Positions 24,277 to 36,546 of a DNA stretch of 64,000 bases are shown piece by piece. The DNA lies in contig CACOSI010000004.1 of the NCBI GenBank assembly GCA_902629855.1, positions 61,045-125,044 on the forward strand. The letters run 5' to 3'. The stretch's first letter is position 1; each line of letters opens with the position of its first letter. The notes beneath the pieces are model-generated. The model was not told where the DNA came from. It searched no databases and saw only the letters and a list, made by a program, of their open reading frames with translations. This stretch comes from an uncultured Fidelibacterota bacterium (GTDB lineage: Bacteria; Fidelibacterota; Marinisomatia; Marinisomatales; Marinisomataceae). The position numbers and the translations under genes are program-made.

Positions 24277-25023
24277 ATGACACTTAATTTTGAACAAATA
24301 ATATCTTTTTGGCTTATTCTGGGTTTAATAACTTTTTTAACTCTTTTAAAAATTCCTGCTCCTTATGGAAAATTCTCTAAAAATAGTTGGGGACCAATGA
24401 TTTCTAGTAGGCTTGGCTGGTTTGTAATGGAAATTATTTCACCCATTGCACTTATTTATTTCTTCTGTTTGAATGCTCAAAAAATAAATGAACCAGTACT
24501 CATTTTTTTATCATTATGGACAATTCATTACATAAATCGAAGCATAATTTATCCTCTAAGACAGAATAATCCCGCTAAGATGCCTTTATTAATAGCTGTT
24601 TTAGCTTTTTTGTTTAATATAATGAATGGATTTATCAATGGGACTTATCTTGGTCTTAGTGATATTTATGATTCAAATTATCTATTTGAATGGAATTTTA
24701 TCGGAGGAATAATTCTTTTTTTAATCGGTGCAATAATTAATATTAAATCTGACAACATTCTTCTCAAGCTCAGAACAAAAACTGGTGAGTATAAGATACC
24801 CCAAGGATTTATGTATAAATATGTTTCATTTCCAAATTATCTTGGAGAAATAATTGAATGGACAGCTTTTGCTATTATGACTTGGTCTCTAGCAGGGTTT
24901 TCGTTTATGATTTGGACAATGGCAAATTTAGTACCACGTGCTATTGCTGGTCATAAATGGTATATAAAGAAATTCCAAAATTATCCTAAGGATAGAAAAG
25001 CAATTTTTCCATTTATTATTTAG
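24277..25023 (+). CDS. Steroid 5-alpha-reductase (SRD5A) family membrane protein
   Basis: APYGKFS, HYINRSIIYPLR, YKIPQGFMYKYVSFPNYLGEIIEW, HKWYIKKFQNYPKDRKAIFPFI. Confidence 0.87.
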   Translation: MTLNFEQIISFWLILGLITFLTLLKIPAPYGKFSKNSWGPMISSRLGWFVMEIISPIALIYFFCLNAQKINEPVLIFLSLWTIHYINRSIIYPLRQNNPAKMPLLIAVLAFLFNIMNGFINGTYLGLSDIYDSNYLFEWNFIGGIILFLIGAIINIKSDNILLKLRTKTGEYKIPQGFMYKYVSFPNYLGEIIEWTAFAIMTWSLAGFSFMIWTMANLVPRAIAGHKWYIKKFQNYPKDRKAIFPFII

Positions 25024-25504
25024 TATCTTTACTTCTTTTTTTAAAAAAATATTCTTTTAATAAAGCTAAAGAATTCCCTGATAATAAATTTCCCCTTACA
25101 ACTGATGGTGTGTTAACGGAAACATTTCCACAAATATCAAATTTTGATCCGCAGGCACCAAATTCTTCATCATAGCATCCAAAATATAAAAATTCTATTC
25201 TACTATTAATGATAGCTCCAGCGCACATTGGGCAAGGTTCTTTAGTAACGTACATTGTACAATCATTTAATCTCCAGTCACCAATTGTATTGGATGCAGA
25301 AGTTATTGCAAGCATTTCAGCGTGAGCAGTTGAATCGTTTAAGGAATTGCATTGATTATAGCCTTGACCAATAATTTTACCTTGAAAAGTAATTATTGCA
25401 CCCACAGGTACTTCATCAGCTCTCATTGCTGTTTCAGCTAATTTTAAAGCTTTTTGCATCCAATCTTCATGAGAAGGTTGATTTAATGTATGTTCGAAAG
25501 ACAC
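25016..25504 (-). CDS. tadA: tRNA-specific adenosine deaminase
   Basis: EVPVGAIITF, HAEMLAI, PCPMCAGAIINSRI; ORF-track start (25534) reads into tRNA-Arg, so GTG at 25504 (or ATG at 25459) preferred. Confidence 0.9.
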   Translation of the reverse strand: MSFEHTLNQPSHEDWMQKALKLAETAMRADEVPVGAIITFQGKIIGQGYNQCNSLNDSTAHAEMLAITSASNTIGDWRLNDCTMYVTKEPCPMCAGAIINSRIEFLYFGCYDEEFGACGSKFDICGNVSVNTPSVVRGNLLSGNSLALLKEYFFKKRSKDTK

Positions 25505-25509
25505 TTTAG

Positions 25510-25583
25510 TACGCCCGGAAGGACTTGAACCCACAACCTTCTGGTCCGTAGCCAGACGCTCTATCCAATTGAGCTACGGGCGC
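25510..25583 (-). tRNA. tRNA-Arg(ACG)
   Basis: GCGCCCG/CGGGCGT acceptor, anticodon loop CTACGGA; one apparent T-T mismatch in T stem. Confidence 0.9.
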
Positions 25584-25612
25584 ATATGAAAACTTAAAGA
25601 AAACTTTACTTA

Positions 25613-27025
25613 TTACTTATAAAAATTAATAGCGCTTGTAATTCTATGAATTGTTAAATCCTTTCCCAACAATACCATCATATCGAAAATACCTGGACCA
25701 TAAGATAACCCGCTAATAGCTATCCTTAATGGCTTCATTACTTTACCCAAACCAACTTCATGCTGATTCATAATCTGATCAAAAACTTTTTCAATCATTT
25801 TTTTATCCCACTTATCTTCAATCTTTACTGCATTGATGAAATCTTCAAGCATTTGAATATTATTTTGTTCAGCCATCATTGGTTTATGTTCGTTAAAAAA
25901 ATCAATTTCTTTATGTAAAAAAACCCTAGAAATTTCTGTTATATCATTAAGATTTTTTGATCTTTCTTTTATCAAGGAAACAACTTCTTCTAAAAATTTA
26001 TTTTTATGTTCTTTCCCCCACTCGTTATTAATTAGTTGGATTTCTTTTATTATTTCTTTGCTAGTCATTTCTTTCATTTTTTGACCAGAAATCCATAACA
26101 ACTTTTTTTCATCAAATACAGCAGATTTTTTTTGAACTTGTTTAAAATCAAATAACTTTATTAAATCTTCTGTGCTAAAAATTTCTTCATTAGAGTCTGG
26201 ATTCCATCCTAATAAAGACAAATAGTTTAAAATTGAGTCTGAGGTAAAACCTTTATCTTTATATTCTTGAACATTTGTTGCCGCGTGCCTTTTACTTAAT
26301 CTTTTTTTGTCAGAACCTAAAATCATCGGAAGATGAGCAAAAATAGGTACATTTTTATTTAAAGAATTGTAAACGAGAATTTGTTTTGGGGTGTTAGCAA
26401 TATGATCATCTCCTCTTATTACGTGAGAAATTTTCATTTCAATATCATCAACTGCTACAACAAAATTATAAGTTGGAGAGCCATCGGATCTTGCTATAAT
26501 AAAATCATCTAAATCTTTATTGTTGACTTTTATCTGTCCATAAACTAAATCATCAAATATTGTAACGCCATCAGGAACTTTGAGTCTAACAGTAAAGGAT
26601 TTTCCTTGTGATATCAATTCTTTTTGTTGCTCTTCCGTAAAGTCTCTATATGTTCTTGGCACTCTAAAAATTTTTTTATTTTTTTCAGCTTTATCTCTGA
26701 GTGAATCAAGCTCAGTTTTAGTTAAAAAACACTTATATGCATTTCCGGATTTAATCAGTTGTTCAATAACACTTTGATGCTTCAAATTATTTTGAGATTG
26801 ATAAACTATTTCATCATTCCAATCTAAACCTAGCCAATCTAATGCATTCTTAATTTGATCGACGTATTCATCTTTAGAACGTTCTATATCTGTATCTTCA
26901 ATTCTTAGTAAAAATTTACCATTATTTTGACGGGCAAAAAGCCAATTAAAAAGAGCTGTTCTAGCACCTCCAATATGAAGATATCCAGTAGGACTTGGAG
27001 CAAATCTAACAACAGGATTTTTCAT
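25613..27025 (-). CDS. gltX: Glutamate-tRNA ligase
   Basis: RFAPSPTGYLHIGGARTALFNWLFA, KKRLSKRHAATNVQEYKDKGF. Confidence 0.97.
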   Translation of the reverse strand: MKNPVVRFAPSPTGYLHIGGARTALFNWLFARQNNGKFLLRIEDTDIERSKDEYVDQIKNALDWLGLDWNDEIVYQSQNNLKHQSVIEQLIKSGNAYKCFLTKTELDSLRDKAEKNKKIFRVPRTYRDFTEEQQKELISQGKSFTVRLKVPDGVTIFDDLVYGQIKVNNKDLDDFIIARSDGSPTYNFVVAVDDIEMKISHVIRGDDHIANTPKQILVYNSLNKNVPIFAHLPMILGSDKKRLSKRHAATNVQEYKDKGFTSDSILNYLSLLGWNPDSNEEIFSTEDLIKLFDFKQVQKKSAVFDEKKLLWISGQKMKEMTSKEIIKEIQLINNEWGKEHKNKFLEEVVSLIKERSKNLNDITEISRVFLHKEIDFFNEHKPMMAEQNNIQMLEDFINAVKIEDKWDKKMIEKVFDQIMNQHEVGLGKVMKPLRIAISGLSYGPGIFDMMVLLGKDLTIHRITSAINFYK

Positions 27026-27027
27026 TG

Positions 27028-27114
27028 CGGAGGCAAGAGGATTCGAACCTCTGAAGGGCTTGCACCCTTGCTGGTTTTCAAGACCAGTGCATTCAACCGC
27101 TCTGCCATGCCTCC
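27028..27114 (-). tRNA. tRNA-Ser(TGA)
   Basis: Class II, GGAGGCA/TGCCTCC acceptor, anticodon loop CTTGAAA. Confidence 0.93.
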
Positions 27115-35699: not shown

Positions 35700-36452
35700 T
35701 CAAATATTATTAGCAAATAAAATTATATCTTTAACAAAATCATCGTTATATTTATCAGCTGTAATTATATCATTATGTCCACTTCCATAATAAATTTTAT
35801 GCGATGCATTCAGTTTATTAGCAAGATACAAAAAAGCTCTTTTTGGAGTTGTTTTATCTTTACTGCCAAATACTGAAAGAACATTATCGGGTCCGCTAAA
35901 GTGTATACGTTCTAAATGAGAATTCCATATTTTTTTGGAATTAAAATGCTCCATTAAAAATGAACGATTTTCCCTTACTTTATATTTGGATAGCTGTAAC
36001 TGAACATGCTCTGGAGTATCATTTGTAAAAAAAAGAGATCTTGTTAGCCATTTTGGCAATTTTCCACTAAAAAGCATTCTCATACCCATTTTTTTAAAGA
36101 ACTTCGATAAACGATTGATTTGCATTTGCTGCATGGCTTTCATAGCTACCCTTCTAGGGGCAAGGCCTGTATTAACAATAATTAATTTATGAATAGCATC
36201 TCCGAGCTGTTGTGCAACAAAAATAGCAAATAAACCTCCAAGGCTGTGTCCAACCAAGATAATGTTTCTTTCTGGATATTCATTCATGACACTTCTAACT
36301 GATTTTACTGAGGATTCAAATGCATTATCTAATGATGAAAAATCCAAATCAATGAGTGAATAATTAACTGATTTATCTTTTAACTTTGGTGTAATAGTAT
36401 CCCAAAAATGAGAACGAATACCTACTCCATGAAAGAAAATAAAATGATTCAT
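35700..36452 (-). CDS. Alpha/beta hydrolase
   Basis: FFHGVGIRSHFWD, ILVGHSLGGLFAIFVA. Confidence 0.85.
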   Translation of the reverse strand: MNHFIFFHGVGIRSHFWDTITPKLKDKSVNYSLIDLDFSSLDNAFESSVKSVRSVMNEYPERNIILVGHSLGGLFAIFVAQQLGDAIHKLIIVNTGLAPRRVAMKAMQQMQINRLSKFFKKMGMRMLFSGKLPKWLTRSLFFTNDTPEHVQLQLSKYKVRENRSFLMEHFNSKKIWNSHLERIHFSGPDNVLSVFGSKDKTTPKRAFLYLANKLNASHKIYYGSGHNDIITADKYNDDFVKDIILFANNI

Positions 36453-36460
36453 AAGATTTG

Positions 36461-36546
36461 TGCCCGGGGCCGGACTCGAACCGGCACGGAGTGTTATCTC
36501 CGAGGGATTTTAAGTCCCTTGTGTCTACCAATTTCACCACCCGGGC
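36461..36546 (-). tRNA. tRNA-Leu(TAA)
   Basis: Class II, GCCCGGG/CCCGGGC acceptor, anticodon loop CTTAAAA. Confidence 0.93.

Follow-up and report, generated by a model that had tools for sequence, protein, structure and literature searches.

A tRNA-Arg(ACG)-tadA junction conserved in a marine bacterial genus most likely reflects genome streamlining

When the gene for a tRNA stands directly against the gene for the enzyme that modifies that tRNA, does the arrangement mark a control circuit, or is it what extreme compaction leaves behind? The question is raised by a locus within a 64,000-nucleotide stretch of DNA from an uncultured Fidelibacterota bacterium (hereafter the window; 31% GC and about 92% coding, counted as long ORFs), which comes from an assembly of 0.93 Mb in 19 contigs with 88% completeness. 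The named records closest to it are single-cell and metagenome genomes of uncultured Marinimicrobia (SAR406), a group of ocean bacteria. Here the gene for tRNA-Arg(ACG) immediately precedes tadA on the minus strand. The original prediction held that one transcript may carry both substrate and enzyme, and that maturation of the tRNA could thereby be tied to expression of tadA. The features that bear on this idea are listed below, beginning with the four genes that follow one another on the minus strand in the order tRNA-Ser(TGA), gltX, tRNA-Arg(ACG), tadA.

27028..27114, minus strand: tRNA-Ser(TGA), 2 nt ahead of the gltX ATG; an independent second case of a tRNA abutting an ORF
25613..27025, minus strand: gltX, glutamate--tRNA ligase (TIGR00464, 528.5 bits), the upstream neighbour in the window species
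25584..25612, minus strand: gap of 29 nt between the gltX stop and the 5′ end of tRNA-Arg
25510..25583, minus strand: tRNA-Arg(ACG), supported by ARAGORN, an RF00005 covariance match and stem pairing; A73 at 25510; no CCA encoded
25505..25509, minus strand: spacer CTAAA, 5 nt, from A73 to the tadA start codon
25016..25504, minus strand: tadA, predicted tRNA adenosine-34 deaminase, 162 aa, GTG start (NF008113, Pfam deaminase families, 1z3a, conserved start)
24277-25023, plus strand: convergent gene with a steroid-dehydrogenase domain, overlapping the end of tadA by 8 nt
36461-36546, minus strand: tRNA-Leu(TAA), a comparison junction
35700-36452, minus strand: hydrolase-like ORF of 250 aa, 8 nt behind tRNA-Leu(TAA)

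Results

Identity and start of tadA

The end of the tRNA at 25510, as originally proposed, is confirmed by a covariance match that stops there (C4:86554-86627) and by stem pairing that agrees on A73; the ARAGORN call, 25509-25583 on the minus strand, is one base too long at its end. The frame behind it matches NF008113 at 2.8e-41 (141.1 bits, just below the curated cut-off of 150) and E. coli TadA (1z3a) at 4.1e-33, and Pfam deaminase families match as well. The HAE and PCxxC zinc/catalytic motifs are present, with TAHAE and EPCPMCAGA aligning with the E. coli protein. Judged by these matches, 25016..25504 encodes TadA, for which conversion of A34 to inosine in tRNA-Arg(ACG) is the predicted activity; the pairing of the enzyme with its known substrate is thus supported.

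Two start codons, GTG 25504 and ATG 25459, lie in the tadA frame, both as first noted, and the mechanical ORF start at 25534 falls inside tRNA-Arg and is indeed an artefact of reading through it. In each of 20 distinct sequences from the genus, the codon that opens the frame behind the tRNA is ATG or GTG, with a Ser codon next; 17 of them have 3 nt between A73 and this start, two have 5 nt and one has 7 nt. The letters of the spacer differ within the genus (CTA, CAA, CAC, CTT, CTC), while its length is mostly constant. Because a start codon plus Ser directly behind the tRNA has been kept throughout the genus, GTG 25504 is supported as the true start of tadA. ATG 25459 is rejected on the same conservation and on the alignment with E. 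coli TadA, whose first aligned residue, number 11, lies upstream of this ATG.

It is also worth considering what the cell would need the pair for. No CGN tRNA other than tRNA-Arg(ACG) was found in the window species' own genome or in two other genomes of the genus (G034 and G032); tRNA-Arg(CCG), present in the 2.1-Mb relative G086, was not found in these three. Counted over the window ORFs and loci L148-L166, CGG is nearly absent from the genus: it occurs once among 17,592 codons of the window ORFs and twice among 10,110 in loci of the genus, against 112 times among 36,779 in loci of the order outgroup. For CGC and CGA to be read, TadA is probably indispensable; this would explain why both genes are kept, although it does not require that they be placed side by side.

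Conservation of the junction

Within the genus, tadA was detected in 19 of 24 genomes, and tRNA-Arg(ACG) directly precedes it in every one of the 19, which excludes chance or misassembly as the cause of the adjacency. Among the five genomes where tadA was not detected, a contig stops exactly at this point in G014 and G018, and G025 has no gltX either; these explanations cover only those three, the remaining two being G027 and G033. A lineage-specific loss of both genes is unsupported, given that two of the five candidates are contig ends and one is without gltX as well. Outside the genus the picture changes: direct adjacency is absent from all loci read of other genera of the order and phylum. 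In the rest of the order the two genes, where they share a contig, lie approximately 3-17 kb apart, and in class relatives they are separated by 2-12 kb or show no linkage in the stretch read. The proposed comparison of gene order in relatives therefore upholds retention of the adjacency among genus members with tadA and fails to extend it to the other genera. Likewise, the notion of gltX as a constant partner does not hold, since several members of the genus have approximately 3 kb between gltX and tRNA-Arg.

One genome of the genus carries a second tRNA-Ser(TGA)-gltX-tRNA-Arg(ACG)-tadA region (L162, G019:C5:22000-28866) in which many stops interrupt gltX and tadA; it could be degenerate, a contaminant or poorly sequenced. 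In more distant bacteria, tRNA-Arg(ACG) lies just upstream of tadA in one KSB1 locus and one Omnitrophota locus, and in several Ignavibacteriota tRNA-Arg(TCG) occupies that place; loci with either tRNA-Arg within approximately 200 nt upstream of tadA are L032, L045, L030, L034, L035 and L042. This hints that a loose proximity of tRNA-Arg and tadA may recur across phyla. A viral copy of tadA was looked for and none was found, and searches of open-licence papers turned up no account of the adjacency, nor of bacterial leaderless mRNAs that derive from tRNA excision.

Origin of the junction

Comparison with the other genera of the order suggests how the two genes came together. There, the usual string is tRNA-Gln(CTG), often tRNA-Glu(CTC), then tRNA-Arg(ACG), c2, c1, c4 and tadA, often followed by tRNA-Ser(CGA), with G010 and G038 departing from it in detail. 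Typically, then, a block of three genes stands between tRNA-Arg(ACG) and tadA: c2, a protein of approximately 260-300 aa; c1, a giant protein of up to 4,306 aa with FlgD_ig and a Por secretion tail in L148; and c4, of approximately 215-260 aa, which has no Pfam match in L148 and looks TPR-like by eye. Two members of the genus, G032 and G029, retain the genes c9 and c6 before tRNA-Arg and have lost c2, c1 and c4; the window species lacks c9 and c6 too, and there gltX precedes the tRNA.

Profile searches place c4 directly before tadA in members of the order and also, elsewhere in the class, in L283 and L288, which represent two other families; outside the order they find c2 in L288. The c2 profile, which recovers c2 in loci of the order and in L288, found none in the genus, in a run that held no positive control of its own; the c4 profile gave marginal matches only, which we take to be unrelated TPR proteins. 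Relocation of the block to another place in these genomes is rejected on these grounds. In a tree of TadA, the genus forms a single clade (100/98) within that of the order/class, nested among relatives that bear the block, with the branching within the order resting on one short protein; acquisition of tadA by transfer is accordingly rejected. Because part of the block precedes tadA in two other families and the tadA of the genus nests among them, the adjacency is most simply read as a deletion scar, in which a block of approximately 10 kb would have been lost in the ancestor of the genus.

Other tRNA-gene junctions in the genome

Spacing was also measured at other tRNAs, as the distance to the first start codon on the same strand that opens a long ORF; the sample comprised 28 tRNAs of the own genome, 34 of G034, 33 of G032 and 35 drawn from G086. 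An ORF of 100 aa or more begins within 12 nt of the tRNA at 8/28, 8/34, 5/33 and 1/35 of them, respectively; as the genomes are related, these counts are not independent of one another. None of the eight abutting tRNAs of the own genome is more than 9 nt away from its long ORF. These eight are listed here with their spacers; partner names besides gltX and tadA were assigned by eye from sequence rather than by scanning.

Ser(TGA)-gltX: 2 nt
Leu(TAG)-permease-like: 3 nt
Arg(ACG)-tadA: 5 nt
Gln(TTG)-prs-like: 6 nt
Phe(GAA)-178-aa protein: 6 nt
Leu(TAA)-hydrolase-like: 8 nt
Asp(GTC)-saccharopine-dehydrogenase-like: 9 nt
Lys(CTT)-SDR-like: 9 nt

Only Arg(ACG)-tadA is a cognate pair of enzyme and substrate; the other seven partners are unrelated to their tRNAs, and with one in eight cognate the tight junctions of the own genome are not enriched for functional pairs. 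At the Ser(TGA)-gltX junction the ATG stands 2 nt downstream of G73, and among 22 distinct sequences of the genus 19 have this 2-nt spacer and two have 1 nt, the exception being a broken gltX frame; in G086, an ORF of gltX-like size starts 113 nt behind tRNA-Ser(TGA). Streamlining and short intergenic regions have been documented for the phylum Marinimicrobia (PMC6143742). Codirectional protein genes have a median spacing of 0.5 nt in the window versus 7 nt in the outgroup loci, and because protein-protein spacing is equally tight, tight spacing alone is no proof of tRNA punctuation. The Arg(ACG)-tadA junction thus looks like extreme compaction rather than a dedicated control circuit, and the special standing that the original prediction gave to the pairing is not supported: the same geometry occurs at seven junctions with unrelated genes, and a deletion is its simplest origin.

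Transcription, processing and translation start

No promoter- or terminator-like site was found on the minus strand in the 29-nt gap or between tRNA-Arg and tadA, and no terminator-like site on that strand in the region. Because a spacer of 5 nt has no space for a separate tadA promoter and a terminator-like site is absent, it is most economical to suppose, as was done originally, that tRNA-Arg(ACG) and tadA are transcribed together, and most likely they are. A weak promoter-like match in the 3′ end of gltX (25669-25641), of a kind no commoner than chance, could allow the two to be transcribed without gltX. Genes in the window make modest use of Shine-Dalgarno (SD) sequences (19/69 versus 8/69 at a control position), and a tRNA ending 5 nt upstream leaves no place for such a sequence; for these reasons initiation at tadA would be near-leaderless and SD-independent.

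The nuclease that would trim the tRNA is less obvious. No canonical RNase Z scored above the cut-off in the genus or order (G000, G034, G032, G026 and G086, and 150 phylum genomes, were searched); across those 150, one exceeds the cut-off and approximately a dozen more come near it, and full-length matches at, near or over the cut-off are confined to family f23 and G213. In Propionibacterium acnes, where no tRNase Z is obvious, mapping has placed the cut in encoded CCA ends between the two Cs (PMC3848588). Nearly all tRNA genes in G000, G034, G032, G086 and other loci of the phylum and of FCB encode C74 only, with no CA following, whereas Paenibacillus loci encode the whole CCA. It is a speculation that an encoded C74 alone would suit a 3′ cut after C74.

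Discussion

From the adjacency itself, its conservation in the genus, the block in relatives and the junctions across the genome, all of which are established, we infer a deletion, co-transcription, excision of the tRNA and leaderless translation. Specifically, in the ancestor of the genus the c2, giant c1 and c4 genes between tRNA-Arg(ACG) and tadA would have been deleted, leaving the start codon 3-7 nt behind the tRNA. One transcript would carry both, in the window species probably tRNA-Ser-gltX-tRNA-Arg-tadA. RNase P and a 3′-processing nuclease would then cut out tRNA-Arg, freeing a near-leaderless tadA message (leader of at most 5 nt) that is initiated independently of an SD sequence, so that the tRNA would act as a removable leader, comparable to mitochondrial tRNA punctuation. 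Any link between maturation of the tRNA and supply of TadA would be a by-product of this layout, common to the other tRNA-ORF junctions of the genome. We regard this combined account as probable. In particular, it is most likely that the adjacency, real and conserved in the genus, is explained mainly by streamlining; the coupling that was first envisaged is plausible as a consequence of geometry.

One competitor grants the compaction but no processing-dependent translation: tadA could be read from the unprocessed precursor or through coupling to upstream translation, and the junction would have no regulatory or processing meaning. The equally tight protein genes, the modest use of SD sequences and the canonical RNase Z that was not found in genus or order all fit such a view. 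However, a folded tRNA 3-5 nt before a start codon should hinder initiation, and a functional tRNA must be excised, which parts tadA from anything upstream, and so we consider it unlikely. It is quite unlikely, in turn, that the pair is a selected circuit in which ribosome access to tadA needs excision of tRNA-Arg(ACG) and the output of TadA tracks its only substrate. Such selection would fit the kept adjacency with its 3-nt spacer in 17 of 20 sequences despite varying letters, the status of this tRNA as the sole CGN tRNA found in three genus genomes, and the loose proximity that recurs in KSB1, Omnitrophota and Ignavibacteriota loci. Yet seven other abutments join tRNAs to unrelated genes, tRNA-Ser-gltX is at least as tight, the adjacency is missing from the loci read of other genera of the phylum, and deletion plus compaction account for the present state without selection for coupling; selected feedback is possible but unsupported. 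The adjacency might instead be original, the block having been inserted later in other lineages, and the KSB1 locus L032, which reads tRNA-Glu(CTC)-tRNA-Arg(ACG)-tadA-tRNA-Ser, would fit such an order. However, c4 (and c2 in L288) lies by tadA outside the order, and the genus sits inside the order with its tadA nested there; because the block would have to be inserted repeatedly at one site, we hold this to be very improbable.

A probable deletion scar with a removable tRNA leader invites comparison with known systems. In mitochondria, tRNAs are excised from polycistronic RNA and thereby release leaderless or near-leaderless mRNAs. The present genome resembles that arrangement in having tRNAs directly against ORFs, spacers of a few nucleotides, no room for an SD leader and a small, compact genome. 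It differs in that the bacterium is free-living, most of its genes are not flanked by tRNAs, no canonical RNase Z was found, and tRNA excision and leaderless translation are predictions here. The Marinimicrobia streamlining study likewise describes small, AT-rich genomes with short intergenic regions, although its main text has no occurrence of the term tRNA and does not describe tRNA junctions (PMC6143742).

The locus offers an example, one that can be followed through relatives, of a probable deletion that brought an enzyme gene up against its substrate RNA. It also exposes a genome-wide pattern in a free-living bacterium, in which protein genes start 1-10 nt downstream of tRNAs. These tRNA-abutting gene starts, 8/28 in the own genome and 1/35 in G086, are a more interesting lead than the pairing of enzyme and substrate. 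Excision of the tRNAs would make genes distal in operons leaderless too and, if this is true, tRNA processing would in part organise how translation starts in an abundant group of marine bacteria, much as in mitochondria. The fullest form of the idea, that excision is a genome-wide route to leaderless housekeeping mRNAs in operons (gltX, tadA, prs-like) of streamlined SAR406 and in addition ties TadA production to maturation of its only substrate, strikes us as distinctly improbable.

Mixed operons of tRNA and mRNA are known in bacteria, the tRNA-tufB operon of E. coli being an example. The tadA locus is like it in that a tRNA and a protein gene stand in tandem on one strand and are probably co-transcribed, and unlike it in that the tadA and gltX spacers of 1-7 nt leave no place for a leader. 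In the own genome, tRNA-Thr(GGT) lies 40 nt ahead of a 397-aa ORF that is probably tuf.
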